Shown one piece after another: positions 11,838 through 63,672 of a DNA stretch of 64,000 nucleotides. The stretch is from positions 7,107,001 through 7,171,000 of the forward strand of contig NC_092582.1 in assembly GCF_037975245.1 (NCBI RefSeq). The letters run 5' to 3'. The translations under genes were made by a program, and so were the position numbers. Position 1 is the first letter of the stretch, and every line of letters starts with the position of its first letter. Origin of the DNA: Apostichopus japonicus (Eukaryota; Echinodermata; Holothuroidea; Aspidochirotida; Stichopodidae). Below the pieces are notes generated by a model that worked only from the letters and a program-made list of their open reading frames with translations, was not told where the DNA came from and did no database searches.

Positions 11838-13345
11838 GTCATATATGGCTGCTATCTCAAGTAGCTGGATGGTAGATCTCTGAAGTAATCTACTGTCACT
11901 GCTACTGATACCCATATCCTTTGAACACAGATCCCTGGCGGTGACCTTGATGTCATCAACTTTACCAGTTTGTTCCAGGATACAGAGGATTGCAAACTTG
12001 TCTCCGTCCTCAGTGCTCTTCAAGTACTGGATTATACTTGCTCCTGCGGTAGGATCCAGTCCACAAGCAAAGCGATAGAGATACTGAAGGTCAAATGGAT
12101 CCATCCTCCTCAAGAATCGTTCTAATTCAGAGGCTCCGCGTGTTAAAGCGACTAACATTAATCTGTAAGAGGCGTAAAATTCACAAAATATTTTGTGATA
12201 GAACCTTACGTGAACGATAAAGCTCTCAGAATACGCCGAGTCATTGTCACTAAGAACTTGTTCCTCGACCAGGATACCAACGCCAACATACTGATCGTAA
12301 AATTCTTGCCCAAGTCGTTTTACCATTTCATCTTTTCTCCAGACAATCTGCTGGTCTTCCTTACTAAGACCCTCGTAAGCTAGTTTGTCCAGTTCATCGT
12401 GTTCACTTTCATAATTTAGGATCAATTTCCTAACACTGTCGTCGCTGGTCTTATTGCGCATGTGCTCATGAAAGCACGTGATCATATACTTAAAGAAACT
12501 CGTGACTGATTTGAATTGATTTGAAAACTCCTTATTTTCATGAGCGATGTGAGCAAACATGACGAAAATGAGCGGAACCTGACAGAGATCAGCTAAGATG
12601 GGGTTTTCCCGGAGTAGTTGTTTGATCTGTTTCATGGCTTCCTGATCGTTACCTACGACAGCCTTACGGAGATACTCATCTCGCGCGTCGTCATCGAATC
12701 CAGTCAGTTTTACTCGTTTTGTCAGTTTTGGAAACTTCTTTGGAAGGTATCTTGTCGTCAGAGTTACATCATGATTTGGGAACATCTCTCTCATGATGAT
12801 GCTTCTGACGTCATTTCCTGTGATCTTATCTTGATCAGGATACTCGTCGTAGCCATCAAGAAGTATCTGTACGGAGGAAGTACTCTTTAGAACATCCTCA
12901 ATATCTTTATCAGATAAACGAGAACCAGACGCAAGGAAGCGGTTGATGGCTCTGTAGATCGACTTCACACCACCGAGTTGTCTTAACCTGAGAAGGATGA
13001 GTATCTCTACGTCATCAAACGGGGAATCCTGGACACCATTACACCAATCATAGGCAAGCTGTAGGGTCAAAGTTGATTTACCGTATCCAGGTTCACCCTC
13101 TAATATACGTCTTGTTGATTTGATACGACGATCGCTATATATTCTCTTGTAAGACTCTAACCTTTCCCATGAAGTCTCTTGACCTCGCACACCTGCCTCA
13201 TTAGCAACCAAGAAGTGGACACTGCCCTCAACAAATACCTTATCCACACAGTACAGTCTATCCTTGATGTAAGGTATAGGCTGTACTGCGTTATATTGAC
13301 CTGTGTATGTTGACTTTAGTGAACTTATCAGTCGCTTCTTCTTTC
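11838..13345 (-). CDS. NACHT-domain exon of an NLR-like immune receptor
   Basis: One large exon (1508 bases, 502 full codons) between a TACACAG acceptor (two bases of a split codon first) and a GTAAGT donor leaving in phase 0. It opens with a pre-NACHT segment (QYNAVQPIPYIKDRLYC, residues 16-32). The P-loop GEPGYGKST is at 83-91 and the Walker B region ILLDGYDE at 160-167. A long helical region follows, consistent with the winged-helix part of NACHT proteins. Family knowledge: NACHT ATPases oligomerise as cytosolic sensors, and echinoderms carry large NLR families. No start codon lies in this exon, so at least one 5' exon (often a Death or similar domain) must lie above 13345; I could not find it. 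LRRs are expected downstream (lower coordinates), and 1376-1584 is a phase-compatible candidate. Both catalytic motifs are intact and the exon has no stop or frameshift. Confidence 0.92.
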
Positions 13346-16300
13346 CTGTGTAGTAAAAAAAACAACGAATGGCATGAAGAATATTAATTACCAGGAGTGG
13401 TGAACTTGAGTAAAGTGTTCAAAGGTGTGCCACGTACTTACGACTTTTAAAATTGATTTCTAATACATCTATTTCAAACCGACATAAGCCCCCCAACCCC
13501 CCCCCCCCCCCCTTTCGTGCATACCCATTTTAGTATTGGTAAAACAAGAAGAAAAGGGTATGAACATTTAAGAATAATATTGGAGAATATTCAAATCTCA
13601 CCTTCAAGGTCTGACTCCATATTTAAGCTCAGTGGTCAGTCATTGTACCGCGACCACTTGAAATCTATACGAGGCAAGAGGAAAATATGTGTAATAAATA
13701 ATGGATATTTGACGCTATAAATTACTAATAGGCCTAACAGAATATAAAAAAGAATGCTATTGATTGGTTTTAGTTAGAATCTCCGAAATAACTTTGACAG
13801 TACTAAGCATCGGATCATTGTAAATCCTTATCCATCCCCCCCCCCCCTTCCGTTCCCACCCCACCGCTCCAAACTTTTAGCGGCAACAGTATATACGCTT
13901 ATTTGTGTCAGTCTGTATCTACGTTATTTTATGTATCACTTTACCATTCAAATGACCGATTTTAGTTAGACTTTGTCATACTGAGCTACAGGACTGATAC
14001 GAATTAAGACTTACGACAAACATATCAATTCGTATCTAACATGTATAGTTTGATTCGAAAGTATTTAAACTTTGGAATTTTGTTGTGCAGATCTTATAGT
14101 AAACGATAGTTGTTTATTTCCCCTTTTGTTACGTTGTGGTTGAAGAACTGTAGGTTGTCTTTAACAGGATTATCAACGATTAAGAAACATGATACCAATG
14201 AGCAGTCATGTTACACTAAAACAAAATCATAAATAAAGGAACTGACGTCATCGTCACCTTTGCCTCAACGGAGACATCTTTGAAACGAAAAGAGGCAAAT
14301 TTATGCGTAATGCATTGTTGACAATATATGAAATCGGACACTTAAGTCTTGTCTGAAGTCTGCTATTGCCCAGTGTATTATCTAATCGTGAATCAAATCA
14401 ATCAAATATATAATGGAATGTTAACTTGTTATACACACGAAGAGAAACTAGGTAGTATTCATGTACACATTTATTCCCTCCCTATCTCGGGAGTCCATGC
14501 AGGTTACTATAGAGAAACAGATGAGGAGCCTGGTCAAGAATGAAAACAGGTACGGAAATAAATAATGATCACGACTTTGATGAACTCTCTTGAACACTCG
14601 ACAGAATACTTTATGAAATGGTTAACAGATTACCATTCACAGGCTCTTCTGTTGATGCTGCTATAGGATGTTTTAATGAACGTTTGGTGAAAGAAATAGA
14701 CGAGAATAAAACTTAACGTCACAGATAATATCTGAACAGAATTGATTTTTTTTCTTTTCTTTTTTTATGTTACTTACAGGAAGTACGTGACAGTCGTATA
14801 CGTTTTCAAATATACGAATATTCTATTTTCCGTTCGAATTTGATTGACTCTTAGGCTATATTCTCTTTATCCTCTTTGTGGTCAGGCTAACATGTAACGT
14901 TTTCATGTACAGATTTTGTGCAACTAATGAATAAAAGTTGGACTCCCATTTTATTTGCAGTGAGAATATTGATATTCAGCAACGTTCACAAAATTACAGC
15001 AAAATAGTTCTCAAAAAGTTACTAATAACTCACCAAATATAGTTAGTCATATATAAACTAGACTTTACGAGAGTCAGGTTACTTTCCGTGCTGTAACCCA
15101 ACATGGCGTCTTCGAAGTAAACGTCGTCATATGATCCGAGTCAATATATAGAATACTCTCTAGGTGAAGTTTTGTCTGACTTTATGTAAATATTAGATAG
15201 CTGATACCAGATAAAAAAAACTGCAACTTTGAACTTTACACATTTAAGGGGGCTGATAAGTTGCCACCCATTAAACTGATAAAATCAAGCGTAGTACACA
15301 TTTACAATAAAATCACAAGAGTCCAATAGACTCCGTGCCTGACACTGAATGGATTAAACCTGTTTATTTAGATCAACTGCCAGTAACAACTATATTAATA
15401 TCGAATGGTAAATATATCTTAAGTCCAAGTGGAACAAAACAAAAATATTCTCTTCCAGTTAGTGACAAGGACTTTTTCAGAGACAAAAAAAACAAAAACA
15501 AAAAACGGGACTTGAGCAAATAAACCAATCGACATAATAACCGTGTTTGGTTGCCAAGGCAAATTACAGCAATGCTATCACACAGCACTTGTATTCATTG
15601 AATGTTTTAAACTACCAATTCGTACATTTCATAACAACATGGAAAGCGGCGATAATAATAGAGTTAATGATACTTCGGATTCCACAAATTTAGTAATCCA
15701 GACATTTTCTTTGTTTATCCTTATATTTTGCAAACCACATTCATGGCAAAACGGTACAAAACGGTAATTCAATGGAAAATTCAGAAGAATTTGAATTTGT
15801 TTTCAATATTTTAATCGCCGAATGTTGATTGCAGTGAAGCTAATTTACGGGTCTGCTGTTGTTGCCGACACGGAGCGGTAGACTGTAAAGAACAAGCTTA
15901 TGGCAAACACCCAACACATGAAGAACATAAGAACAATGGGATACAACTTCAGCTGCGAAAGGATTGTACAACCGAGACCACGGTCTGATGGGGGGAGGGG
16001 GGAGGGGGGAGGCGGTGAAGGAGGGGCAGGTTACGTAATCAGATTGTCAAGGAAACACTTTGAGACGGCGTACAAGTCACAAAGATCAGTAACAGTCATG
16101 TTGTTATAGTCGTTTAAAGGAACAAAAGCAGTCTATACCCACTGACAAAACGTTAATCTGTTGAATGCGATCTAAATCTATCACGAAACTTTCTTAAGGA
16201 TGTAACGTTATTAATGAGAATGTAAAGAATGTGCGTTTTGAGAGGAGCGCCAAAGTGTTGATGACATCATAGTGAGAAAATGACAACATGCATTCTGTTC

Positions 16301-17899: not shown

Positions 17900-18721
17900 A
17901 TCATCATTTGTAAACCATCTGGCTGTCCATACGTACCGTCTTATTAAGCCGCACGCGTGGCGTTGTGAGTTAGAATTTTTTAACACACAAATTTTGCGTT
18001 TTTCAAATTATATTGGCCGGTGGAAAATGAAACGTCCGGCCAAACCTTTTTCATTGAGGGCGGGGGGGGGGGGAGCGTGGGGGAAGTATTTTTACTGGCC
18101 TACTCAATTTAAGAGGGAGCTAGCTGGAATTGTTAAGTTCCCCCAAAAAGCATTGGACAATTCATGTTGTTTTTCACACTCAAGGTTGCGTGTAGACCTA
18201 CACTTCGGTAGAATCCTTGGATTTATTTTTACCACATTTAACTCACTCCCTACAATGTTCACCGGAGACAATCCAAATTCAACGAATTGCAAAACGACGT
18301 AATTCGAGCCCCTGTACAGTGTAAATAGTCATAATATTTCAGCAAATTCGTAACCTGTGAGTTTTCATCCGATTTAAGCCGCCAATTTTAGCCGGCTGCC
18401 TCACAGAAAAACTGGTCACCCTGGCCGCCCTGCATAGTAAGGACTTTCTGCAAATAATGCAATTAGGTTTTCACAGTTGAATTCACAATGAGAAAAGAGG
18501 TTATTATTGAAAACTCTTTGACCTTGGTAATTGCTAAACACTATGGTATAACAATTAGTTATATACAAGGCTATTGAATATATTCCAGATATAACAGACC
18601 TTTATACACGATCAGAAGATCAGTGCATATTGTATACATTGGTGTTATAGCATAATCGACCTATTTCACTCTTTCACTATTACGTTAGGGAAAACCGGTT
18701 AGTAATATACACATTACTACC
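17900..18721. other. no gene recognised; 5' flank of POMGNT2-like gene
   Basis: It contains a G run near 18061-18074. Frames here begin in the minisatellite and show no domain. The last part is the presumed promoter and 5' UTR of the gene starting at 18722; I see no clear TATA box. Confidence 0.4.
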
Positions 18722-20164
18722 ATGCCTTCGAAGGCTTACTGGAAGTTTGCTGTCAAAGTATTTTTTCTTTCGATAGGATTCAATATTATTATTTCATTTG
18801 AACCATGGTATGTAGGGCTACTCTTCAAAGGTTCTGTTAGGCAGAAAACCGACGACAGACTGGCCGTATCAGGAACAGAATATCCTGAAGGAGAACTACT
18901 GTGGTGCACTCTTAGTGACCGATCATGGGGCAGAGTTTGTAAGTTCCGTAACTTATGTTACATGCATATCAATGGAGAATTTGCTCTCTTCCACGGAAAC
19001 ACAGCGAAAACTGGCCACGAACAAGACGCACAATTATTAGGTAATCGTTTAGTCAGAGACATTGTTTCGTTAACTTCTGCTTTGGGAGCAGAATTTCCTT
19101 TCAATTTAGCCCATATATTAATATATAATATTGTACCTGGTAAACTTAAATATTTTAATTATCGAAGTGGTAGTTATCATCTCTTCCATGCATTTAATGT
19201 TGGTAATACCGCTCACGCGATCCACGATGATTTACTTCCGGTTTTCTACACGCTTTCTCGATACGATAACCTTACAGAAGAACCGACTAGCACACTCATA
19301 TACTGGAGGGAAATAAGTTTGAATAAATTGATGGGTTTATATCAGCTGTTTTCGCAGGGAAAGCCAATTTCCCGAAACGACTTAACTTTTGAACCAGAAG
19401 AATCACTGACCTGTTTCCAGGATATTATCGTCGGTTTATCGTCGGAGACGCTGTGGTACCAGTGGGGATTGCCCGGTTTTGAGCCCGAAGGTGCACTCAA
19501 AGGGTCAAACGCAACATCGAGTCACATAGCAAAATTCACAGGTTTCGTCAGAAAGAGAATGGGTCTTCCACTCCGATGTCTAATTGCTAACGATTATGGT
19601 ATTATTTTCATACGGAAGAAAACTCGTCTGATTTTGAACGAGGAGAAACTTTCGGAAGTATTGTCCAAAACACTTCAGTTGGAAATGAGAGAACTAAGCC
19701 TCGAGAAAAACACAATTAAAGAGATTATTAAGACTGTGTCGTGTGCTAAAGTTGTTGTCGGTTTGCACGGTGCTATGATGATATTTTCTATTTTTCTACC
19801 ACCTTCATCGTTCGTTCTAGAATTATATCCCTATGCGATTAATCCACTTAATTTCACACCCTACAAAACCGCGGTAGAACTATCAGGAATGGACATCGAA
19901 TACCGCGCTTGGCGCAATATGAACCGTTCGAATACAGTGACTCACCCTACCGAAGCATTACATAGGGGCGGTATATCGCACTTGAGCAAGAAAGAGCAAG
20001 AAAGGATAACTAACTTGACCGAAATTCGGCCACATCAATGTTGTCAGCATCCAGAGGTCCAGTTTAGACTCTATCAAGATACTTTAATTGATATCCCTTC
20101 CGTAGTTAATATTTTAACAAATACTCAGTTTTATAAGAATCGCAATGGTAAATTTGGTACATAG
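18722..20164 (+). CDS. POMGNT2-like protein O-mannose GlcNAc-transferase (GT61), lacking FnIII
   Basis: A single uninterrupted frame of 480 codons. Family role: POMGNT2 adds beta-1,4-GlcNAc to O-mannose on alpha-dystroglycan in the endoplasmic reticulum. Residues 7-26 form an N-terminal membrane anchor (WKFAVKVFFLSIGFNIIISF). Family landmarks as I know them from the vertebrate enzyme: a Cys-rich block around WCTL and VCKFRNLCY (61-80), HGNT (91-94), HDDLLPVFYTL (168-178), LILNE (303-307), GLHGAMM (347-353), LELYPYAINP (366-375), PYKT (380-383), AWRNM (396-400), NTVTHP (404-409) and CCQHPE (440-445). The vertebrate protein is about 580 residues and ends in a fibronectin type III domain. Here the frame stops right after the DIPS segment that precedes that domain, and transposon-end-like sequence starts two bases later. 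An intronless coding region is also usual for the vertebrate gene. The start is the first ATG of the frame and sits directly before the anchor. Confidence 0.92.
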   Translation: MPSKAYWKFAVKVFFLSIGFNIIISFEPWYVGLLFKGSVRQKTDDRLAVSGTEYPEGELLWCTLSDRSWGRVCKFRNLCYMHINGEFALFHGNTAKTGHEQDAQLLGNRLVRDIVSLTSALGAEFPFNLAHILIYNIVPGKLKYFNYRSGSYHLFHAFNVGNTAHAIHDDLLPVFYTLSRYDNLTEEPTSTLIYWREISLNKLMGLYQLFSQGKPISRNDLTFEPEESLTCFQDIIVGLSSETLWYQWGLPGFEPEGALKGSNATSSHIAKFTGFVRKRMGLPLRCLIANDYGIIFIRKKTRLILNEEKLSEVLSKTLQLEMRELSLEKNTIKEIIKTVSCAKVVVGLHGAMMIFSIFLPPSSFVLELYPYAINPLNFTPYKTAVELSGMDIEYRAWRNMNRSNTVTHPTEALHRGGISHLSKKEQERITNLTEIRPHQCCQHPEVQFRLYQDTLIDIPSVVNILTNTQFYKNRNGKFGT

Positions 20165-42702: not shown

Positions 42703-42708
42703 TTTATT
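42703..42708 (-). promoter_or_regulatory. polyadenylation signal AATAAA
   Basis: AATAAA on the minus strand about 80 bases after the stop codon of the proposed cytokine gene, at a suitable distance for its 3' end. Confidence 0.5.
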
Positions 42709-42786
42709 TCTGCATGACTATATATAAACAATTAATTTAATTTATCCAATTATCTGCATCTATGGCTCTATATGGAACCACCTATT

Positions 42787-45742
42787 CTAGTCTTCGTGCA
42801 TCAATAAGTTATAGAAGTTTCCGTAAGATAATTGTAGGTAATGTTGAAACTCCTGAAGAACGAAGAGACCTCGTTGTTTTACACAAGTGATGTCACATGG
42901 GTCAAAGGTTACAGATGACATCGATGACGGTTGAAATGTATTTCCAAGACGTGCACTCTGACAAAAGAAGAACAAATCAAATTTTTTCTCTAGATCCCTT
43001 AAAGACAGACAACAATACAAACTCAATCTTCAACGTGCATTGTTTTGCTAATATTTCCACACACGCACAAAAAGAGCATTTTACAGAGAATAGTGACAGC
43101 TAAGCAAGCATACCAAATGTAGTCACCTTTCAAGGATATACCAAAACAAGAAAATTACACAAAAGCAAAGTTAAGCAATATTAAAGAACACTTGCTCAGA
43201 TGACATCACAGACCAACTATAATGTGATCTATTCCAAGGTTTAGCCAGTCAAAACAGTTAGTTATTATCAGGGGGATAGGAGCACGAAGGGGGGGGGGGT
43301 GGGGGCGGGGGGCACGTGCCCCCACTTTTTTTTCCAAAATAGCAAATGTGCCCTACTGGCCAAAAAAATGTGCCCCTTTGATGAAGAACTGTCTTTTGGA
43401 TATCTTAGGCCTTTGTTAGTTTTAATATTTTAGTTTAATTATTAATTTTTAGTCTGTACATGCTATTTTTAAAATGGCATGCCATATCTTTTTGTAGCAC
43501 GGTAAACAATAAACAATCTCAATAAATAGTATTGAAAGCATACTAACATTTCATATATAGTTAAGTGATATGGCCGGTGTGTATCGGTTTATAGCATAAC
43601 GAGTGGTGGTTGTGGAATGAGAAAGTGCCCCGTGATATTGTGCCCCTCCCCCACATATTAGAAACTTCCTACCCCCCCCCTAGTTGTTATGAGGAGGGTC
43701 TACAACACCCGTAAACGCTTTGAACAGGCAGTTGTTGCCTGCTTTGCTTGAATCTCGGAAATTCGTTGTCAAGTGCATCATGGTGTGCTATATAATCATC
43801 ACTAAGACACACCCGACAAAAAGATTTGTTTTTTATTTGAAAAGACACTTGACTTGTCAATATTTTGTCTGTTTGAAAAGTGAGAACCACAAGAACCACA
43901 AGAGAAGTTGATTTTTATGTACTTACAATGGTTGATACTTCCAACAGGAAGAGGTTGATTCCATTAATCAAATGCGATATTCGTCCGTTGTAAATGACCA
44001 TGTTCGGATGTCGGCTTCTTAACCAAATTTCGTCGTCAAGGGCACATCTCAAAGCGTCTCTAATAAGTTTCGAGAACTCAACATGTTTTAGTAAGAAGTT
44101 GCTGACATTGTTAATCTATCATAAGAGAAGCAAACATAGCGATATAAAGGAGTTTGGAGAGGGATAATATCGCACAACGAAATGCGTGCAAAGAGTGGGA
44201 TGGGCCAGGAGGAATTCTGTACGACGAAAAACACATGGTGCTTTCAATAAAGGTGAAAGGTGATCTTTACCAAGAATAAAGAGACATTTCTATGCTAGTA
44301 ATGTGTCTATAGAGCTTTCCCATGTGTTCAACATAGTTAGTTTAACAATTTGCTATATCACTGGAATGTTCCTTTAATGTTAAATTCATGATGACGTCAT
44401 CTCACCAGTGAAGACTTGAAGGTTGATGACTGTTTATCCTTTGTTTTATCAATTCTTAGCAATTCAAAACATATTCCTTGTATCTTCTTATAAACATATA
44501 TAACTGAGAACCGTTATAGGTGATATTCGACAACCAAGATCATTGATCAATTTATTATACATTGTAAACATGACAGTATTAGAGTTCATTGTAATGTTTT
44601 CTTACAGTACCAAGTCATCTGAGGAACAAGCCGTTTAATGGTCTGTATTCGGTAGATGTATAGGTATATACTCCCGCCATTATAACTGATGGTCCTCTTA
44701 TGCTTAAAGGGACATTTCTCAACAAAGGGGATAATTGACGTGGACTGATGGCATTTTTTAACGGGTTTCGAAAGATTAGTTTTTCTACTTCAACAGTCTT
44801 AGCCCGAATAATTAAGCTTCATGCTAACAATATTAAACTTGACGAAGACAGAAGTTCAAGAATGTGTTATTGTTTGGCGTTTTTGTTCGGAGGAGTCGGG
44901 GGTACCGCTGTGTGAGAAAGAGATGTTGTTTTGTAGTAACGAGAAACAGAACAGTACCTGCGATTGACCAAAAGTTGTGAAATAGCTTGGAAAGTGATTG
45001 ATTCCTGAAACGTTGAGCACGTCATGGTGAGTGAGCACAGTGTTATAAGTTTGGAAGCGCTTTGATTTCTGAAAAAGTAAAAAGAAAAACCACAAACTTA
45101 TAGATCTAACTGTTTATTATTCTGAGCAACCTTATAACAGTGTCATCCACAGGCTTTTACGAACCTTTAAGGAAGGGCCAGAGGCGAATGATCTCCTTTA
45201 GAAGAGGTTCGGTCTGGGTGTTTTGACACCGACGCTCCCTCTTCGCCACCCCCCCCCCCCCCGCCCCCATCCAACAAATAGAAACGATACAAATTAATAC
45301 GTCAGATGGTGCGCACGTCACTGCCGTATAAAAACAAATTCCCCATAGCTGCTCAGATTTCATGAATTGTAATTTATTTTAACTAGACTAAATATTACAT
45401 TTAAGCTTCAAATAAAAAAAGTTAACACTTACCACAATTTCGTATAGCTGCAATGTTTTTATTTGATTAATTTGGATTCTGCTCAATGTTCGTTGATATA
45501 ATCTTTTCAAGCTGTCTCCTGTAGATGCCATTAGGGGTAAAGTTGTGAACATAATCAAAAAGATAAAAACTGGTACCGCAGGTTCTGTTGGAAAAATCAT
45601 AAGCAACATGCTTTTATAACACAAAAGTAACAAAATCATTTCTTTGAGGAGGCGGTGTCGTTAGGGACGGGGAAATGTGAGCGGGGTAAAGCGGCGTAAC
45701 CTTTGTCTACAAAAAGCCTACAGTGAATTGACGACCTATAAA

Positions 45743-45792
<50 letters not shown>

Positions 45793-46415
45793 GCACGTGT
45801 CCCGGGGGGCGTTGGGGGGCGCAGGAGAGAAAAAAGAGAGAGAAAAGAAAGGGTAAAAATAGGAGGGAAATAGAGGAGGAAGAAGAAGAGGAAGGGAAAA
45901 GAAAAAGAAGAAAGAGAAAAAAAAGAGAAAAGGAGGGAGTATAGAAGAAAACAACGGAAAGAGAAAGAGGAACAGTGACAAAATTACAGCGCTGATCCCT
46001 ATTATATACAAAGGGTAGCCATGCAGTGACGGATCGAGGATTTCGGAAGGGGCGTGCGCCTCACCCTACCCAATACACCGACAACTCAATTCTTGACGTT
46101 TCCATTTTTCCTCACTCACTAATGTATATATATAAATACTATATATGGTCTATCCTAACGCGTGTGTGTATGGACGCCTTAAACAGTTGAACAATTGTGC
46201 TATGAAACCAACTGTGGCTGGTTTTCAACTCGACCGAGTCGTCGGGGAACATGACCCATTTCGGTATTAGACCAGGATATTATGTGCGAACTGCACTAGA
46301 CCTATGTTCGTCGATGCAACACTGCCATCCTGAGATAAAATGTTATACACTCCGACCTGAATGCTAATTGTTACCACTCACCTAGTACCGTAACTCCTAC
46401 AATGAATCTAAACAT
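42787..46415 (-). CDS. IL-6/G-CSF-like long-chain helical cytokine (proposed)
   Basis: Five exons, minus strand: 46382-46415, 45433-45584, 44958-45068, 43927-44115, 42787-42957; 657 bases, 218 residues. Intron phases are 1-0-0-0 with GT-AG sites and strong T-rich tracts before exons 3 and 5. Hydrophobic leader at residues 13-31 (VPVFIFLIMFTTLPLMA core). Predicted helix A lies at 35-62 (SLKRLYQRTLSRI...), the AB loop is all of exon 3 (63-99), helices B and C are in exon 4 (about 103-122 and 138-162), and the CD loop plus helix D are in exon 5 (helix D 189-214, GLFVLQEFQHYLQLSY). Cysteines at 123, 183, 187; NVS glycosylation sequons at 81 and 102. Vertebrate IL-6 and G-CSF have this exon-to-helix layout and these phases, and helix D aligns gaplessly to G-CSF as I recall it. 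Expected role: secreted ligand of a class I receptor signalling through JAK/STAT. Exon 1 is the weakest part; the frame of exon 2 also reaches upstream to an ATG at 45639, an alternative start. Function is inferred from architecture; sequence identity is low. Confidence 0.75.
43269..43682. mobile_element. hAT-like MITE in intron 4 of the cytokine gene
   Basis: 414 bp between GTTATTAT (43261-43268) and GTTGTTAT (43683-43690), an 8 bp duplication with one mismatch. The ends are loosely inverted: CAGGGGGATAGGA on the left; the right end read inward starts TAGGGGGGGGGTAGGA. The interior is rich in GTGCCCC blocks, as in the element at 21472-22101. Non-coding. Confidence 0.5.
45745..45978. repeat. 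AT microsatellite plus polypurine tract
   Basis: A TA dinucleotide run (45745-45789), a CCCGGGGGGCGTTGGGGGGC block, then about 150 bases of almost pure purine (AGAAAAGAAAGGG type). It lies in intron 1 of the cytokine gene. The Leu/Phe-rich minus-strand frame across it is an artefact of composition. Confidence 0.85.
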
Positions 46416-47950: not shown

Positions 47951-47954
47951 TTAC

Positions 47955-48487
47955 AATTCAGACGAGTTACTATGCATGTATGTATAGTTTACCATTCAGA
48001 CGAGTTACTATGCATATATGTATGGTTTACACTTCAGACGTATTACTATGCATGTACGGTCTACAATTCAGACGAGTTAATATGATATATGTATGGTTTA
48101 CAATCCAGACGGGCTACTATGCATACATATGTATGGTTTACAATTCAGACGAGAAACGTTGCATAAATGTATGGTTTACACTTCAGACGAGTTATTATGC
48201 ATATGGTTTACAATTCAGACGGGTTACTATGCATATGTATGTATGGTTAACAATTCAGACGAGTTACTATGCATACATATGTATGGTTTACCAATCAGAC
48301 GAGTTACTATGCATATATGTATGGTTTACACTTCAGACGTATTACTATGCATGTACGGTCTACAATTCAGACGAGTTAATATGATATATGTATGGCTTAC
48401 AATCCAAACGGGCTACTATGCATACATATGTATGGTTTACAATTCAGACGACAAACATGTATGGTTTACACTTCAGACGAGTTATTA

Positions 48488-48529
<42 letters not shown>

Positions 48530-48990
48530 TATATATAGATATATGGTTTACAATTCAGACAAGTTACTATATATATATATATGATTTACAATTCAGACGA
48601 GTTTCTATGCATATGTATGTATGGTTAACAATTCAGACGAGTGACAATGCATAAATATGTATGATTTACAATTCAGACGAGTTACAATGCATACATATGT
48701 ATGGTTTACAATTCAGACGAGTTACAATGCATACATATGTATGATTTACAATTCAGACGAGCTAATATGCATATATGTATGATTTACAATTCAGACGAGT
48801 TACTATATGCATATATGTTTGGTTTATAATTCAGACGAGGTACTATGCATTTATATGTATGGTTTACGATTCAGACGAGTTACTATACATATATGGTTTA
48901 AAATTCAGACCAGTTACTATGCATATATGGTTTAAACTTCAGACGAGTTACCATATACATATATATGGTTTACAATTCAGACGAGTTAAA
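47955..48990. repeat. ~37-40 bp minisatellite, about 27 units
   Basis: Units share GGTTTACAATTCAGACGAG followed by TTACTATGCATA and TATGTAT. Unit length varies (about 30-44 bp) because the ATGCATATATGTAT part expands and contracts; a TA run interrupts it at about 48490-48542. Long plus-strand frames with YYAYICMVYNSDE-type repeats are translations of the array, not genes. Confidence 0.9.
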
Positions 48991-50699: not shown

Positions 50700-53600
50700 A
50701 TACACAATAAAGGATGAATTCAAATTTTTATCAAAATGAGCATTAAATTGAGGACACGTGAAAAATCGCCCCTACACAAAACTTCAGAAATATTCAATGG
50801 AAGTTTAATATCAACATTAATGGAAAGTTTTTCAAAGAATTTCCAAAGTCTCTGAACAAAATCACAATGATAAAACAAATTTTCAATTGTTTGGAGATTA
50901 AGCATGCAAAAAGTGCACATATTTGATGCAACAATACCAATCTTTTGCAAATAATAATTTGTCGGGATGATTCTATGAAGAATACGATACTGAAACCAGC
51001 GAATGTAAATATCACTACTAGAGTTAAAAGCGACTGTACAATACAAGGCCCAATCCGCACTAGTAATACTGAACGATTCTGTCCATTTGAAGTAAGATTT
51101 ACACAGGCGGTATGAATACAGCAAATGATTGTAAACATATTTACAATCAAAACTACTCATATTCAATAGTATATTTATGAAACTATTAACAGGGCCCCAA
51201 GATACTCAACATTACAGGCATCTGTAATACTTCGCAACCTGGTTTGTACTGACCGAATAAGGCCATGATATTAAAAAAAATGATCTTGATGCGATACTTC
51301 TCAATAAAGTGAATCAAAAGAAGAAAATGTCCGTTTTCATCAATCAAGTCACCAATGAAAAATACGCCATGAAGCGCCCAAAATGACGATAATCAACCGG
51401 GAAATCCCCTACCGTCACCAGCGAGATATTCCAAATTGGCAGACTACAGATAAGCGAACTATCCAAACGAGGAGAATTCAAAAAATTATTCAGGTATAAG
51501 CAAGTGGAGTGAAACACATCTTTCCAGAATGGATTGTGAACACGTCGGCTAACGAGATTAACCTAATAATCACCATTCTTATAAAAATCTGCAACGTTAA
51601 TGCCATACTTCTCTAGAAGAATACACCCAGACATGGTGACTGGATTACGGAGATATCTTTGAAATGTAGAAACCTTTAAAGTGGTACAGTGTAAAGCAAA
51701 ATCCACCATTCTCAACCCTCCCTCGGGGTATGACTGGCAAATCTGATTACGACTAATCTTATCCGGCTTTTTATTCCAAATGAAATGGAAAAGCAAGTCA
51801 CTAACGCCAGAAATAAAACCTTCTGTTGGGCTTGGGAGCGAGACAATATTATAATTGAAACAGGGAAAGATAAGAGTTTTAACAACAGTTATTCTACCCA
51901 ACACAGTCAAGTTACGTTTAGCCCAAATATGATAATATTATTCAACTTTATGAATGCGCTATCATAATTCTGGGCCCGATAAGTTCTAGATTAGTACTGA
52001 AAATAATCTCAAGCAAAATGAAGTCATCACCGGGTTTTAACCACGGGACCACCTCCAGACTGTCAAAATACAGCGTGGACTCTTTCCATGACCCTAGACT
52101 AATCAGTAAAGATTTATTCAAGTTGAGATTCAAGCCAGAGATGGAACCAAATGTTTTAATTTGATTTAAGAGGGTGCAAAAAGAAACCTCATCTGGGTGA
52201 ATGAAAAAGGGGGTATAATCTGCGTACTGCGCCAACATACATTCTCGGTCTCCAATAGTCAGGGGCGTATCCAGGATTTTCCAATAGGGGGGGCGCCAGG
52301 CATGAATGATCGCCGTCCTGGGGGATGGGTCTAAGGGGAGGGGTGTACAATTTTTGCTTTCAAAGAAGGGCTGAAATGCAAAATGGTGTCATATGCATGG
52401 GCGGCGATCCGTACTTCCGAGTGAGGGGGGGAGATATGACCTTGTTGACTATCTAAGCGTAGCGCCACCATGAGCTGGCGCGAAGCGTACAAGAAAATTT
52501 TGGGATTAACAAACCCTCTAGATGGCCGGAAACGGCACTTCCCGAGGTTTCCAAGCGGCATATACCCAACTTTAAAATAGGGATGTCATGTCCGAAATAT
52601 CTCATAATCAGGATCCAAAATACTTTTTTTTTAAATTTCGGGTGTTATTTTGGGAAAATTGCCCCTGTCAATCTTGTTTCAGGCGCAACGTTAGAATGTT
52701 CGAGAGCTCTGTTATATTATTCGATGAAGAAAATGGCCTCATGCAGGCTATTATAGGCCTATACACATGCAATACACAATTACACATAGTTACATTCCTA
52801 GGTACCGATTGCTAGGGCATCCAGGTGAAACGTGTATTAAGCATTACCCTGGTTACATGAGATTCTCAGCTGTTCGAGGGAACATGTACGTGTGTAGGCC
52901 TACTATAGGGCCTATATGAATACTATGAGGGTGCATATATGTACTATATTAATACCGTGGGCGCAATAATACATTTTGTTGTTATAGGGCCAATGAAGCC
53001 TACAGTCAACTATTTTTGCTTTATAAAGACGCTTTATTTGAAAAGATCGCACTGCGTTTATGGTAGGCGAGAAATGAAGCTAAAAAAGAGCCGTACATTA
53101 ACGAAGATGCATAAATGTAGGCATGAAAATATTCTTATCCCTGGCATTTGGTGGGGGGGGGATATGGTGCATTACATCCCCTCCACCCATTTTCATGGGG
53201 GGATATATCCCCCCCTCCACCCAGGATCGCCGCCCATGGCCATATGTGATCCATTTTTCGACCTTAATAATAAGCAACATTTCCAGTAAATATGGACACA
53301 AAATGCACAATTTAGTATGGCTGGCATGTCATTTATTGTTTATAGTGATAATACAAACACAATTACCATCTATGTTTCTAAAACTATTATGCCGCCGAAC
53401 TTCGCCAGAACCTTTTTTTGGCAAACAAAGCATACGGGAAGGGGAGGGGGGGGGGGTTGAGCGATCACAGACATCTCACATAAAGGTCGTCATCAATTTT
53501 TTTTTTTTTTTTTTTGCTAAACTTTTTTTTTTTTGGTGACGGCCAATAGGGGGGGCGCGCGCCTGTTGCGCCCCCCCCTGGATACGCCCCTGAATAGTTA

Positions 53601-54170
53601 TACCACGAATACTCTTGTCATTGCATACCAGTTGATTAAAAGTTCAGCACAAAGAATAAAGAGATAGGGAGACAAAGGATCACCTTGTCTACAACCCCTT
53701 TCAAAGGGAAAACCCCGCGTGACAAAGCCATTCACTTTACCGAGGTCATGGCTTTATTATAAAAAGCATCAACCCAACGGAGAATAGAGGGACCAAAGTT
53801 GAACAAACTAAGAACCTTCTCATAAAACGGAGGGAAACACTGTCAAAAGCTTTTTCAAAAACAATTGTAAATAAAACACCTGGGCTATAAAGTCCTCCTC
53901 AAGGTTAAACATTATGTCATAGATAGTACGAATGCTATCACCTATGTATGTTCCCTTAATAAAGCCACTCTGATCCGGGGAAGTTAAGTCGGAATTAAAC
54001 TTTCTGACACGATTAGCTATACAAGAAGAGGCAATCTTATAAGAAACATTCAGTAATGAAATTGATCGCCATTTATTAAGGAAATTTCTCGATTTATCCC
54101 CTTTAGGAATGAAGGTTATAACTCCATGCCAAAGAAAAAAAGAAATGTTGATGTCTAAAGCGACTATTAT
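50700..54170 (-). pseudogene. L1/Tx1-like LINE, frameshifted and split
   Basis: Read on the minus strand from 54170 down: IPKGDKSRNFLNKWRSISLL and PDQSGFIKG (about 54115-53960), [20 protein letters not shown] (about 53690-53635), then after a 1.33 kb insertion the active-site block QYADYT (about 52230; the second Asp of YADD replaced by Tyr) and GLNLNLNKS. Next come GRITVVKTLIFP, PEGGLRMVDF (about 51900-51700) and the zinc-finger-like zf-RVT end with CTFCMLNLQTIENLFYHCDF (about 50930-50870). The 5' part with endonuclease is missing. Several frameshifts and the altered YADD show it is dead. Confidence 0.85.
52260..53592. mobile_element. 1.33 kb inverted-repeat element inside the LINE
   Basis: Ends CAGGGGCGTATCCAGG and CCTGGATACGCCCCTG, flanked by AATAGT on both sides (52254-52259, 53593-53598). 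Joining the flanks at one AATAGT restores continuous RT coding ([11 protein letters not shown] into the QYADYT block), so the borders and the 6 bp duplication are well supported. It carries the dispersed core TATCTAAGCGTAGCGCCACC at about 52449, also found at 4494-4790 and 5747-6012. No transposase; internal frames cross poly-G and poly-T runs. Confidence 0.9.
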
Positions 54171-54576: not shown

Positions 54577-55990
54577 CGTAACAACCAGGGGCAGCTTCTT
54601 GTCGCAATCTCGTCCCTTTTTGTCTTTCACTGCCAAAGTAGATGATCTGGAAAGGGAGCGGACTCTCTAAATGGCTTCACGCACCCTTCTGGCACTATGG
54701 CCCCTAGCAGTAAGGTGTTTTTCCAAAGCATCTGTATGGCGAATGAAAGAGGAATTGTTATAGCAAATGCGAAGAAGACGAAGTGCTTGACTGTGGGCAA
54801 TTCCAGACTTGCAGTGACGGGGATGGCAGCTTGAAGTATGGAGATACTGGTGTGTGTCTGTGGGCTTGGTGTATAAGTCTGTAGAGTGAGAACCGTGTTC
54901 CTTGCGACAGTCACATCGAGAAAGTTAACCTGTTGGTGAGAGAAATCAGATGGAATTTGATGGTGCTGTGGAAAGAATTGCTGTGATTGATGAAGGTGAG
55001 CAGGCTATCCTCATTACTGGTCCTAACGAAGAAGATATCATCAACGTAGCGCCACCAGATAAGGGGGCGACAGGGAGCTGTACTGAGCATGCGTTCTTCA
55101 AGTCTAGACATAAACAGGCAAGCGAAGGAAGGTACCATTCTGGTTCCCATGGCAGTCCCGTGTCTTTGAAGGTAATGCTTGTCCATGAACGTGAAGTTGT
55201 TTTTGGTGAGAACCTGTTGCATGAGATCTTTGATGTCAGAGATGGGTGGACAAGGGTGGACCTTCTTAGACAGGGCTGCACACGTGGCTGCGATACCTTC
55301 AGCATGAGAAATGTTAGAGTTAAGAGAAATGACGTCGTGTACTGGGGATTTGTTTCTTGATATTCTCAAGTTTCTTGAGGAAATCTGGAGTGTCATGGAT
55401 GTAAGAATTAATCTGAGGAAGAAGAAGTTTGATGAAGCGGTGCATAAACAAATATGTCCTCTCGGCGGGGGACCCATTGCCTGAGATGATAGGCCTACCA
55501 GGGTTACCAGGCTTGTGAATTTTGGGCAGGAGATAAAAACCTGGCTGCCTTACAGTCTGTGGGAGAAAGGACAGAAACAGCCTTCTTAGAGATCTGCTGG
55601 TTGCGCTGGTGCATATCATTGTTGGTCTGTTTTATCTGCTGGGAGAAAATAACTGTGGAATCAGAATCAAGATGAGTGTAAATATCACTGTTGGAGAGAT
55701 TGCGCATGGCTTCCTTGATGTAGTCCTGTCGATCCTGGATGACAACTGCAGAACATTTGTCGGCTGGCTTAATGATAATGTCACTGCGAGACATCAGTGA
55801 GGAAAGTACTGTACGCTCATCTCTTGGAAGGTTGTCGTGTGTTCTGCGGAGTGGAGAGCTTGACTAGTTAGTCTCAGAGCTGACGAATTGTGTGTAGGCT
55901 TCTAAAACAGAAACCCTGTTCTTAGGAGGCATCCAAGAACTTTTCTTGCAGAAGGGTTCCCATTCAGTTGGAGGATAATCTAGAAAAAAC

Positions 55991-56490: not shown

Positions 56491-58084
56491 ATTTTATGCG
56501 TGTGTGTATTTGTATACAATTGTTGCATGGGTGTGTGTGTGTATGTATATGTGTTTATTTATGTATATTGTGGGTGGTGGGGTGGAGTGGGTGTGTTATA
56601 CGTGTTGAATCGGTGTGCAGGTGGATATACGTGTTACTATTAGCTTGTATTGTTCTCTCTATTTACCTTTGAGAGCGCTCTACTATAGACAAGCCCTCTG
56701 AAATGTTGGATTGCTTCCTTTCACAATTTTCCCTGTTGTTGATATATTATTAAGTTCAATTCTCTGTATTTATATTGTTAAGAAAAAAAATGAAATGAAA
56801 TGAAATATCTAGTATAGGCTTAATGTTACGGGTATTGTTGAGTATACTAAAACAACAACAGTGCAGTAGCTATGCCCTCATGCCACTTCGAAGCGAGTAA
56901 CTCAACTTCTCAACTTCAAGTTCAATCTCAGTCGAATCGTTCGAATCCCGAGTTTGGGACTTGCAGAAGGATTGCAGAAGGATTCTTTGGCTAAGCTATC
57001 GCATGAAGAGTCTCAGTGTATGCCTATCTGATTACATCCTTATTATAGCGTTTGAAGCCATATTGGTTTAAGTGGATCATGGTCGGACCTGATGCCAAGG
57101 TGGTGGCGCTATGCTTAATGATTTAGATGAAACATTAAGAGGGTGGCAGCGCACATTGCGATGGACCGAGTTTGTTTATTGCTATATAGTTGTTTTGTAG
57201 AAAATTTGGTTTTACTCGGGTTGTGTTATAACTATCGTTGATAGTTGATAGCATCTTGATTCGTGTTCATCTTCATATTCTTTACAAAAATTTAGTGAAA
57301 AAATCTAATTCACAGGTTAAAACATTAATTCTGTACAGGTTGATAATTGTATTACCGGTATTTAATATCAATTATACAGTTATTCTTAAACAATCACGCG
57401 TAAGAGAGGGTATATCGCCACATATATTATTCAACAATGTATTTAAATGTTTTTTTTTATCTACTGTGTAGATTACTTCATTATTTTACGCTTTTCGGTG
57501 TTGCCAGATTGAATAATATCTTTACTAATTACAGCGGAATCGACGGGTCTGTGCGTAACTTTATTGCTTCTTGCGCCAGTAAGTGATACGAAAGATGTTT
57601 GTTGGATCAATTTCATCGAGTGCATCGAGGCTGTTATATATGTTTAAACTACACGTTTTCATTCGAAACAAGAGCAGAAAAATATTGTAAATACAACGAA
57701 AATGATAACCCGCGATCAAAAACAAAACCGATGTGTCGGCTAAATATGTTTGCCATTATAATGTGAAACTGATTGGTGTTACGTAACCAAATTCAAATGC
57801 TACCCTGGATCCTAGTTGTACTCCTCTGCTGACATACTTTCATGTATTCTCCTCTGCCTATAAACGAACGGGACTATTTAATGTTCAGTTGATCCTTACA
57901 TTAGCCTCTGAAACAAGTTGAGGATGTGTGGGGTATGCTCAATGCATTTGCACAACATGTACTTTTGTATATACGCTCTTCAACTTCCAAACCACAAACC
58001 AAAACACGTCGTCCTAACTGGCAACATATCGTCTGTTTTTCGGCACTTTTCCAAGAACACTTGAGCGGATTAACATATATATAG
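56491..58084. other. no gene recognised
   Basis: GT-rich at first (TGTGTGTATG type), then unique AT-rich sequence without a supportable exon. Confidence 0.4.
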
Positions 58085-59113
58085 TAAACTTATGAATATG
58101 GACGTTCCCGGTGGTTTTATTCACTGGATTTTGAACTATTTAACTAACAGAACTCAGTTGGTGAAACTCAGCCATTCGTGCCTCTCCGATGTTATTCTTA
58201 CAAATACAGGGGCACCCCAGGGAACAGTTCTAGCACCATTCCTATTCACACTTTACACGTACGATGCCAGGTCATCAGAACAAGGGTGCTCACTCATCAA
58301 GTTTGCTGACGATACTGCCATGATTGGCTTAGTCAATAGTTATGGTGATGAAGCTTACTTACGTCAAATTCAGTCTTTTGTGAACTACTGTGATCTTAAC
58401 TTCCTCCAATTAAATGTTGCTAAGACCAAAGAAATGATTATTGATTTTCGTCGCAATACTAATCCTCCACCCCATGTTGTTGTCAAAGGAAGTGCACATG
58501 TAGTTGATCGTGATACGTCATATAAGCATCTTGGGGTAGTGCTGAATGATCACTTGGCATGGGGAGATCATATTGATATATTGGTAAAAAAGTTGAATTC
58601 TAGATTGTACTGCCTCCGTAAGATGTCGAATTTTGATGTTCGTCATGACATTGAATTAGCCGGGTTTGGCGTTATTGCTTGATTTGCTGGGGTGGGAATG
58701 ACAACAAACATGAAAAAGATCGTATTAACAGCATCATTAAGAAAGCGGAGAGAGTAGTCGGGGAACCCTTGCCTTCCATTGACTCGGTTTACCACAGCCT
58801 TCTCGAGTCCAAACTGGACGCGGTATGGAAGGACCATACCCACCCCCTCTATGAGCTACTTCATAGTTGTCAGATGTCCAGAGGCAGTGGCAGGTTGAGA
58901 CTTCCGTGTCTCAAAACCAATAGACACAGAGATTATTTCATACCCCGTGCAATTAAGCTTTTCGATGAGGTTTTGTTTCGTTGACTCTCATATATTGACT
59001 TTTTTCTTATTATTCTTACTGTTTTATTGCACAATATACATATCTACTTTTGTAACATTTTCATTGTTTTATGAGCGAGTGCCTGAATTTCCCTTTGGGA
59101 TCAATAAAGTTTT
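58085..59113 (+). pseudogene. 5'-truncated CR1/L2-like LINE
   Basis: It starts inside the RT domain. The first frame (to 58682) has GGFIHWILNYLTNRTQLV, GAPQGTVLAPFLFTLYTYD, FADDTAMIGL and LQLNVAKTKEMIIDF, then HLGVVLNDHLAWGDHI. A short deletion and frameshift at about 58670 lead into a second frame (IIKKAERVVGEPLPSID, then THPLYELLH and HRDYFIPRAIKLFDE) ending with TGA at 58982. The 3' end has the small hairpin ATTTCCC-TTT-GGGAT and AATAAAG before the ACTG array, as CR1/L2/Rex-type elements do. The FADD active site is intact, but the element lacks its 5' half. Confidence 0.85.
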
Positions 59114-59469
59114 ACTGACTGACTGACTGACTGACTGACTGACTGACTGACTGACTGACTGACTGACTGACTGACTGACTGACTGACTGACTGACTGACT
59201 GACTGACTGACTGACTGACTGACTGACTGACTGACTGACTGACTGACTGACTGACTGACTGACTGACTGACTGACTGACTGACTGACTGACTGACTGACT
59301 GACTGACTGACTGACTGACTGACTGACTGACTGACTGACTGACTGACTGACTGACTGACTGACTGACTGACTGACTGACTGACTGACTGACTGACTGACT
59401 GACTGACTGACTGACTGACTGACTGACTGACTGACTGACTGACTGACTGACTGACTGACTGACTGACTG
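59114..59469. repeat. (ACTG)n microsatellite, 89 copies
   Basis: 356 bp of perfect ACTG directly after the LINE 3' end (AATAAAGTTTT). The Val-Ser-Gln-rich minus-strand frame is a repeat artefact. Confidence 0.98.
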
Positions 59470-60728
59470 TATGCTGCCCTCGCAGACGCGTCTAGACATG
59501 CGACACTAGACAGCTAGCTAACCAGCGAAATGACGAGAAAAAGACAGGAGTACGTTTCTGTAAACTGTATTGAGATTCCTCACTCATGTTATCGCGGTAA
59601 AACTGAAATAAAATGATATGATAAACTTGAATAATAATGATGCTAAATACAACACTACGAATGTATAAAAGAAAGATTATAACGGTGAACTTTGAACTTG
59701 CTACAGACCAAATGAAGCTCACCGCAGTACAATATTTTACACTGATAATTATAATGTGTGTCAAAAGGATGAGAGTCGAATAACTCTGGGGTTAAATTAA
59801 TTCTCTTAACTTGTCTTAAGAAGAATTAATAACAAAGTTGACTAAAGAACAAACAGAGTATCAAATGAGCAAAAACTATTATGATTAATTAGTAACAACA
59901 ATCCATCTCAACGAACGGAAATTACGTAACGTAAGTATTACGCAACTCTGATAGGAACATGAATATGTGAGCATAAACATAGTTGAACAGGGGTTAAGGT
60001 AATTAAAACCCAAGTGTAACTAAATTAATATTAACTTATTCAAGTCACAAGTAAATATATATAGTTATGGAGTCGCCCATATTTAATAAACAACAAAATA
60101 TGTGCAAACCTGCACTCGAGGTAAATACTTCTTAATTGGAAAACAAATAGATTAATTATGTCTAATTAACAATCTCAAATAACTGACATGTGCAAGGTAA
60201 GCAAGGTAGTACAATAATTAACCTAACAAATAAGACAAAGAGAAAACTTACAGATTATAATTGAGCCAGGTCGAAAACGTTAGCTAATGAAACTGCGTAC
60301 GATATGTAAGGCGGATGCGGTGTTGCCTACTATAATGCTGAAAACAGAACTTGAAGTCTATAATGAAAACAACACAGGTCTCTGAGAAAAGAAATAAGTG
60401 TGAATCTCCCATTACCATGAGACCCTCCTCATGTGTGGTCAAGGAGAAAGTTATCGACAACTCTTCCATCCTGACTTGCCCCCTGCAGACCTTTCATAAC
60501 AGAGCTGTGCTATGAAGTTACAGATAGCTCAAACTGATCTGACCAAAGAGCAGGCAGCAGAGAGAAAGAATAAGAAGAGTCAAAGGTGGCTTGCTTAATG
60601 AAGTATAAACAATAACATGTGTAGTAAGGTAAAAACTGAATCCCTGTGAAAATGAATAAGTACTGAAAACAGGACTACCTGCCCGATAGGCGATAAAAAA
60701 AAAAACATTTACTTGAATGGCAGAACAG
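59470..60728. other. no gene recognised
   Basis: AT-rich interval between the two ACTG arrays. No coding signal or clear element ends. Confidence 0.45.
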
Positions 60729-60890
60729 ACTGACTGACTGACTGACTGACTGACTGACTGACTGACTGACTGACTGACTGACTGACTGACTGACTGACTG
60801 ACTGACTGACTGACTGACTGACTGACTGACTGACTGACTGACTGACTGACTGACTGACTGACTGACTGACTGACTGACTGACTGACTGAC
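60729..60890. repeat. second (ACTG)n microsatellite, ~40 copies
   Basis: 162 bp of perfect ACTG, followed on the right by TTACTTACTT. Confidence 0.98.
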
Positions 60891-60960
60891 TTACTTACTT
60901 TTATTCCATATGGGATATGCCGCCTGTAAATAACCGTGTCAGCTATGAACATACACATTT
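60891..60960 (-). mobile_element. LINE-like 3' tail, opposite orientation
   Basis: On the minus strand it reads GGCATATCCCATATGGAATA followed by AAAGTAAGTAAG and then TCAG repeats. An ATCCCATATGGAAT hairpin plus AATAAAAG before a tetranucleotide run is the same arrangement as at 59080-59114, mirrored. No RT coding is visible upstream (higher coordinates), so only a tail remains. Confidence 0.45.
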
Positions 60961-62571
60961 TTGAATGTCGCCCCCTTTCTTTTTCGGATCTATCTATTTA
61001 TATTTATGTTCGTAATCGTGAATTTATTAAGCCGTGCATGACGAGTTTGTGAACAAGCTTTCTATTTATATATACAATTGTGGAAATTTTCATGTTTCTG
61101 ATGAAGATATTGTGCGATTTGTAAAGGTGAAAATATCACCATTGATCAACCCACTCAGTCTGGGAATTAGTGCTACTCAGCTTTAAATCAATTGCTTTTA
61201 AGCATCTGCACCAGTGACCGTATATTACGCAGAATAATATCCATTTTCTTATGGCAGATATGTTGACAAAATGAAAGGAAGTCATGTAAATGAGGAATAT
61301 ATCGTTACCACACTTTTAATTATACTATTTATGTTTTTTCTCATAAAAAATTGTAACCGCTGAAGTAAACGGACGATTACAAAATAGGCATACAAGCTTG
61401 TTACAGTATTTGAAAAAATGGCATTGCATAAAAAAAATTATGGGAATAATGCCCTGAACCCTGTTAGGAGCATCAGTGGGCAGTGATTAACAACCTCAGG
61501 AGTACCTCATTAATATTCTTGAGATGAGAGATTCGTTCACTTTTCGACGAATAGAAACGAAAAAAACTGAAATGTTGTATGGCAGGGGTTACTGGGTAAG
61601 CGGCGTCAAACAATTAATCGATGGAGACAATAGGCAGGAAACAACCGGCGACCTTATTAATTTCCAAAATGGCGAGGGCAGGACAAGATATACATAACGT
61701 TTAGTGAATATTCCATTTGTCAGAATATACCATTGCAAAGAACCATCGTTTACCTATAGCGGACTGTGGTGCGGAGTGAACGATCATGACTGAACGAGTG
61801 AACGAGTGAACGAAGTGAACGAGTGAACGATTAATGACTCTCCCAATGGAGGATTTACGATTCACTAAAACTAAGTAAATGATAACAATTAGTAAAGACA
61901 CAATACAAAAAAGGTAATGTAATTGTAGTCTTGAGACTGAATGAAAACTTAGAGTCCATGCAGAATATCGGTTATTTATTGATGATAATGAAAAAAGAGG
62001 ATATGAAGTAAAAATTTGTGAAATATGGGTTGTTTTACAGAATGTATCTGCTTCCTCTCGCAAGAGTACGTAATTTCTTTGACTGAAGATATTTTTTACG
62101 AATTTATAGATAGTTAGGGGTTGGGAATGTAAAGTTTTGATACCAAAAAAAGAGATAAAAATATAAGTATTGTTGAAGAGGATGCAATCAATTACCGATG
62201 GTCTGAAAAATCTGGAGAATTGAAGGTGATTTAAGGTATTTTAGAAATTCCTGGGTGAAACAAGAAGATTCTGCAACGATGCTGGCAGATGGATTAGGGG
62301 TTGAGCGAGGTAGGTCACCAAGGGATTGCATATTATTTTGAAAACTATTGATAATTTTCGAAAATTGTATAAATTTGGGAGTCATGCTATATACAACGAC
62401 CATTAATCAATCCAATGAAACCGACCCCCCCCCCCAGCCACACACCACTTCGGGAGTGTTTGTTTTCTCTGCACATATTGAATCAGCAGAGTAAACTTGA
62501 ACTGTTGTACAAATATATTTATAAGATTACGCTGCATTTTATGCAGCTGCAATTACTCTTTCTCCTTTCAC
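60961..62571. other. no gene recognised
   Basis: AT-rich. A small array of GTGAACGA / GAACGAGT units lies at about 61775-61830. A C-run lies at 62425-62435. Confidence 0.4.
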
Positions 62572-63672
62572 ATCTTTCAAAGATTATATCATATTGAGAT
62601 CTATTACTAACACATCTTTCATAGATTATATCATATTGATATCTATTACACATCTTTCATAGATTATATCATATTGATATCAATTACTCATCTTTCATAG
62701 ATTATATCATATTGATATCTATTACACATCTTTCATAGATTATATCATATTGATATCTATTACACATCTTTCATAGATTATATCATATTGATATCTATAA
62801 CACATCTTTCATAGATTATATCATATTGATATCTATTACACATCTTTCATAGATTATATCATATTGATATCTATTACACATCTTTCATAGATTATATCAT
62901 ATTGAGATCTATTAAACATCTTTCATAGATTATATCATATTGATATCTATTACACATCTCTCATAGATTATATCATATTGATATCTATTACACATCTTTC
63001 ATAGATTATATCATATTGATATCTATTACACATCTTTCATAGATTATATCATATTGATATCTATTACACATCTTTCATAGATTATATCATATTGATATCT
63101 ATTACACATCTTTCATAGATTATATCATATTGATATCTATTACACATCTTTCATAGATTATATCATATTGATATCTATTACACATCTTTCATAGATTATA
63201 TCATATTGATATCTATTACACATCTTTCATAGATTATATCATATTGATATCTATTACACATCTTTCATAGATTATATCATATTGATATCTATTACACATC
63301 TTTCATAGATTATATCATATTGATATCTATTACACATCTTTCATAGATTATATCATATTGAGATCTATTAAACATCTTTCATAGATTATATCATATTGAG
63401 ATCTATTAAACATCTTTCATAGATTATATCATATTGATATCTATTACACATCTTTCATAGATTATATCATATTGATATCTTTTACACATCTTTCATAGAT
63501 TATATCATATTGAGATCTATTACACATCTTTCATAGATTATATCATATTGATATCTATTACACATCTTTCACAGATTATATCATATTGATATCTATTACA
63601 CATCTTTCATAGATTATATCATATTGATATCTATTACACATCTTTCATAGAAGACATAGATTATATCATATT
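62572..63672. repeat. 38 bp satellite, about 29 copies
   Basis: Unit: ACACATCTTTCATAGATT, then ATATCATATTGATATCTATT. Most copies are identical; the commonest variant is GAGATC for GATATC, sometimes with AAACATC. One copy near the right end carries an 11 bp insertion (AAGACATAGAT-like). The unit contains the palindrome GATATC and the near-palindrome ATATCATATTGATAT. Confidence 0.97.

Follow-up and report, generated by a model that had tools for sequence, protein, structure and literature searches.

A candidate long-chain helical cytokine gene of the sea cucumber Apostichopus japonicus with distant likeness to the IL-6/CNTF/G-CSF group

Helical cytokines and the echinoderm background

In vertebrates, the genes of IL-6 and G-CSF have introns in phases 1-0-0-0, and both human proteins contain the arrangement C-x9-C-x6-GL-x2-[FY]-x3-L, the signature of the IL6/GCSF/MGF family. 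The genes of CNTF and CLCF1 have fewer exons than the sea cucumber gene presented here, and helix D of the CNTF/CLCF1 type carries an FxxK motif at its start. Vertebrate signals of the IL-6 type act in regeneration and innate immunity, two processes for which sea cucumbers are employed as models. In the present work, a window of 64,000 nucleotides (the whole stretch of DNA analysed) from the sea cucumber Apostichopus japonicus was studied, comprising positions 7,107,001 to 7,171,000 of the forward strand of NC_092582.1 (assembly GCF_037975245.1). The probable product of a gene on its minus strand is a secreted four-helix cytokine of the long-chain (type I) class, a distant relative of the IL-6/CNTF/CLCF1/G-CSF group.

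From the starfish Asterias forbesi, Beck and Habicht reportedly described in 1996 an IL-6-like molecule defined by its biochemical activity. Among the matches listed in searches of the open-access literature, no sequence-based echinoderm member of the IL-6/CNTF/G-CSF group was found. The Drosophila Unpaired (Upd) ligands of Domeless constitute, as far as the available excerpts describe them, an invertebrate system with an IL-6R-like receptor and JAK-STAT signalling; the comparison with the sea cucumber protein is one of description. The amphioxus GH-like hormone (GHl), in the accessible part of its report, is a type I helical cytokine of 208 amino acids that comes from an invertebrate chordate and has little identity to vertebrate sequences (PMC9010856). 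GHl, likewise compared by description, offers an invertebrate precedent, but it belongs to the GH branch and to a chordate, and the sea cucumber protein is not matched by the helix D of human GH. In the accessible text of a 2026 survey, IL6 was detected in vertebrates only, IL6R, JAK and STAT also in invertebrates (including an IL6R of sea urchin), and the ligands were left open (PMC13203501). Excerpts of a sea star wasting-disease experiment report a rise of IL-6 receptor contigs and few annotated interleukins (PMC4503460), and those of a coelomocyte study in Holothuria leucospilota present four cytokine families, none of the IL-6/CNTF/G-CSF kind (PMC7161275).

Gene structure, helix D and predicted fold

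The gene consists of five exons (Table 1) that join in frame to give 218 codons and a stop, with no frame defect. Its four introns, of 797, 364, 842 and 969 nucleotides, all run GT...AG and have phases 1 (at the unproven exon 1), 0, 0 and 0, the series of vertebrate IL-6 and G-CSF genes. This structure, together with a hydrophobic leader, had been proposed in an initial annotation, and the observation was confirmed: the junction coordinates proved exact, phase 1 being read from the sequence, and the leader stands out in Kyte-Doolittle hydropathy (2.88 over 11 residues). Past residue 35, no 19-residue window rises above 1.6 as a transmembrane segment would; by hydropathy alone, the protein thus combines a leader with the lack of a transmembrane segment, as secreted long-chain type I cytokines do. 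Judged by eye, cleavage is likely near LMA/STG, at about residue 29. Two N-glycosylation sequons lie at residues 81 and 102.

The best and sole match among about 5.8 billion proteins is BSL78_20456, a hypothetical protein of A. japonicus with 189 amino acids (E 1.1e-120). It starts at MASTGDS and equals residues 30-218 of the gene model save for one I/V difference, so that three of the four junctions, those joining exons 2 to 5, have separate support; the near-identity also assigns the window to A. japonicus or a closely related species. The gene is already public, although unnamed; the locus, which the initial annotation expected to be easily missed, was not missed altogether. A second whole-database search with residues 66-189 again found BSL78_20456 only. 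No orthologue was returned by either search, which is no evidence of absence because one that evolves fast would escape the word filter. A tblastn search for paralogues with the five exon peptides matched nothing in the window except the gene itself below E 0.18. The locus name gave no match in open-access papers, and no description of the gene was found among the literature matches listed.

At the sequence level, the similarity of helix D to those of cytokines exceeds chance. In ungapped comparison, the D helices of CNTF, CLCF1 and G-CSF each find their best placement at residues 159-184, and that of IL-6 at 160, the same offset that IL-6 shows versus its own relatives. Shuffles that preserve residue classes, keeping the hydrophobic, polar and charged pattern, scored as high in 314 (CNTF), 30 (CLCF1), 58 (G-CSF) and 1,041 (IL-6) of 5,000 cases; a repeat with other shuffles, in which the IL-6 helix was one residue longer, gave 291, 22, 62 and 1,498. 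Taken singly, the CLCF1 and G-CSF helices are significant by this sequence measure, and those of CNTF and IL-6 are not. The gapless alignment to the G-CSF helix D noticed in the initial annotation is accordingly real, with 7 of 26 residues identical. The summed score of 89 (runner-up placement, -13) was reached by 6 class-preserving and 2 full shuffles out of 30,000 each, a joint figure that does not amount to four independent tests, since the four helices are related, and that concerns families chosen after the structural search. Among the 29,508 stop-free 26-mers in the six frames of the window, the helix D segment alone attains 60% of the summed score. When the A, B and C helices of CNTF, CLCF1, G-CSF and IL-6 were placed on the protein in 12 tests, the lowest count was 73 of 2,000 shuffles as high, at the wrong place.

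Structure prediction suggests, at low confidence, four long helices with two long crossover loops in the up-up-down-down order. The model lies nearest to cytokines, CNTF and CLCF1 being its best structural neighbours; for a control helical protein, no cytokine appeared among the matches listed. Within the best 50 of 92 matches in a viral structure library, a rhadinovirus IL-6 homologue ranks third (E 1.0) and a viral IL-10 homologue 28th (E 4.5), neither of them significant. The proposal that the exons divide at helix and loop borders agrees with where the predicted helices fall, except that helix C overruns three residues into exon 5 in this low-confidence model.

No Pfam family matched up to E 10 (HMMER filters on), and a sequence search of PDB was likewise empty. 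This silence is not telling, because phmmer with CNTF or CLCF1 finds no other member of their group in PDB (E<=10); G-CSF and IL-6 retrieve each other weakly among PDB chains (E 0.33 to 1.7). Plain local alignments stay at shuffle level, with 220 (CNTF), 51 (CLCF1), 35 (G-CSF) and 127 (IL-6) of 300 class-preserving shuffles as high; for calibration, the pairs CNTF-CLCF1 and G-CSF-IL-6 had 0 of 300 shuffles as high, and for the four cross pairs the count ranged from 33 to 159. A joint profile of 17 CNTF and CLCF1 sequences aligns with residues 115-180, that is helix C, the CD loop and helix D, at 6.8 bits, a score reached by 12 full and 100 class-preserving shuffles out of 10,000 each; hhalign gave P 0.0033 with a probability of 9.7%. 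The separate profiles are weaker, with 236 and 759 of 10,000 full and class-preserving shuffles as high for CNTF (hhalign P 0.018), and 1,190 and 1,843 for CLCF1 (hhalign P 0.11).

Strict membership of the IL6/GCSF/MGF family (Pfam PF00489) was rejected, because no profile matches and the cysteine/GL signature is absent from the protein, which also lacks any AB-loop cysteine and has its three cysteines elsewhere (123, 183 and 187). What it shares with IL-6 and G-CSF is five exons (as partial sources give them), the leader and the helix D identities to G-CSF, exon 1 of the candidate being unproven. Compared with CNTF and CLCF1, of the gp130-LIFR type, the Lys of FxxK is kept (K160) and the Phe is replaced by Thr157, and the helices other than D are unlike in sequence. 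Of the diverged IL-6/G-CSF-type cytokine first envisaged, the assignment to long-chain type I cytokines finds support in the structural neighbours of the low-confidence model, helix D and the gene layout, and the one to the strict family does not.

Weighing the alternatives

Two points weigh against the cytokine reading. The structural model, made from a single sequence, has a predicted local distance difference test score (pLDDT) of 45, and exon 1, of 34 nucleotides, is absent from BSL78_20456 and constitutes the weak point of the gene model. At 45585-45660 (minus strand) the frame of exon 2 is open upstream and has in-frame ATGs preceding the same leader, which would provide an alternative start dispensing with exon 1; exon 1 and its phase 1 are therefore unproven. 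The lack of support for exon 1 would suit a wrong or dead gene model, made of chance-joined exons or a pseudogene, and so would the merely mild coding character of the codon usage, where the coding sequence scores -5.7 and 613 of 20,000 sets of open non-coding stretches reach at least that under a model trained on just 961 codons. Such an error is very improbable, given that 206 open codons have a chance of about 3e-6 in this composition (for one fixed frame, freedom of exon choice not counted) that a separate annotation, differing in one residue, has the same three junctions, and that the gene shows no frame defect.

If the gene is real, its product could be a fast-evolving secreted helical protein specific to holothurians and without cytokine descent, resembling cytokines as any amphipathic helix bundle might. 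The whole-database searches found no homologue outside the species, the Pfam scans gave no family match, and the signal is limited to helix D and the adjoining C-CD region, in a weak model. We consider this explanation unlikely, as the joint helix D score is so seldom attained by shuffles that keep the pattern, and the control helical protein brought up no cytokine among its listed matches. Quite unlikely, in our estimate, is a helical cytokine of another branch, such as an interferon/IL-10-like class II cytokine or an EPO/GH-like hormone. Leptin, prolactin, placental lactogen, interferons, TPO, GH and EPO do appear within rows 9-29 of the structural list, Z differences of 1-3 cannot separate branches in so weak a model, and five exons fit several other helical-cytokine branches. 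Against this, the final helices tried from these branches, one member each (EPO, GH and IFN-beta), place away from residue 159 and at shuffle level (2,166, 4,775 and 2,465 of 5,000 as high), while the D helices of all four group members, CNTF, CLCF1, G-CSF and IL-6, fall in the helix D register, IL-6 and CNTF without significance singly.

Within the preferred reading of a long-chain type I cytokine, a narrower proposition is an even call: that the protein is a true member of the IL-6/CNTF/G-CSF group, sharing an ancestral gene with the vertebrate cytokines, having retained the exon plan and helix D, and acting on gp130/IL-6R-like receptors.

The surrounding window, proposed action and significance

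Table 1. Features of the candidate cytokine gene, in positions of the window
Feature	Positions	Strand	Evidence
Putative exon 1, with the start codon, the first half of the leader and a phase 1 donor	46382..46415	-	Sequence and GT donor; unproven
Exon 2: hydrophobic leader, helix A	45433..45584	-	Identical to BSL78_20456 from MASTGDS on; model helices 4-19, 21-24
Exon 3: AB loop	44958..45068	-	Present in BSL78_20456; single short model helix 59-67
Exon 4: helices B and C	43927..44115	-	Present in BSL78_20456; model helices 72-97, 113-136
Exon 5: CD loop, helix D, stop codon	42787..42957	-	In BSL78_20456 with one I/V difference; model helices 156-163, 166-187
Helix D segment VKQRGLFVLQEFQHYLQLSYGNFYNL	42805..42882	-	D helices of CNTF, CLCF1, G-CSF and IL-6 match in one register
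AATAAA polyadenylation-type signal	42703..42708	-	79 nucleotides 3' of stop

An additional ATTAAA lies at 42741, and the AU-rich ATTTA element of cytokine mRNAs does not occur within 120 nucleotides 3' of the stop. Elsewhere in the window, a long open frame at 11769-13418 (minus strand) contains a domain of the NACHT NTPase family (Pfam E 4.3e-12) and probably forms a single exon of an immune gene of the NLR type, and a 491-codon open frame at 18689-20161 (plus strand) contains a glycosyltransferase 61 domain (Pfam E 5.4e-12). Retroelement pieces are present as zf-RVT at 50723-51205 (minus) and reverse transcriptase at 58074-58679 (plus), both above Pfam cut-offs; reverse transcriptase matches at 53823-54170 and 54914-55549 (minus) fall below them, and 3 of the 7 frames scanned in this check gave no Pfam family. 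Near-perfect tetranucleotide arrays of 89 and 43 copies, whose minus strand reads as open SQSV repeats, lie at 59114-59469 and 60728-60899, and long tandem arrays at 47951-48988 (units of about 40 nucleotides) and 62569-63651 (about 38 nucleotides, 28 copies, 97% matches).

As a cytokine, the protein would be cleaved near residue 29 and secreted, and the mature form would fold as an up-up-down-down bundle. In vertebrate cytokines, receptors are bound through the A/C and D/AB-loop faces. The corresponding faces of the sea cucumber protein may bridge two class I receptor chains, most likely the IL-6R/gp130-like ones reported in echinoderms. We infer that this bridging would activate JAK and STAT in receiving cells, which we guess to be coelomocytes or cells of regenerating tissue.

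The protein represents a sequence-level candidate ligand for the IL-6R-like receptors of echinoderms, and with it the gap in ligands left by the 2026 survey becomes testable. The failure of phmmer with CNTF or CLCF1 to retrieve other group members from PDB also illustrates why genes of this kind escape detection. If the narrower proposition is true, it would offer a kind of gene for the starfish IL-6-like molecule of 1996, hormone-like signals of this type would exist in echinoderms, and the ligand-receptor system would predate the split between echinoderms and chordates.
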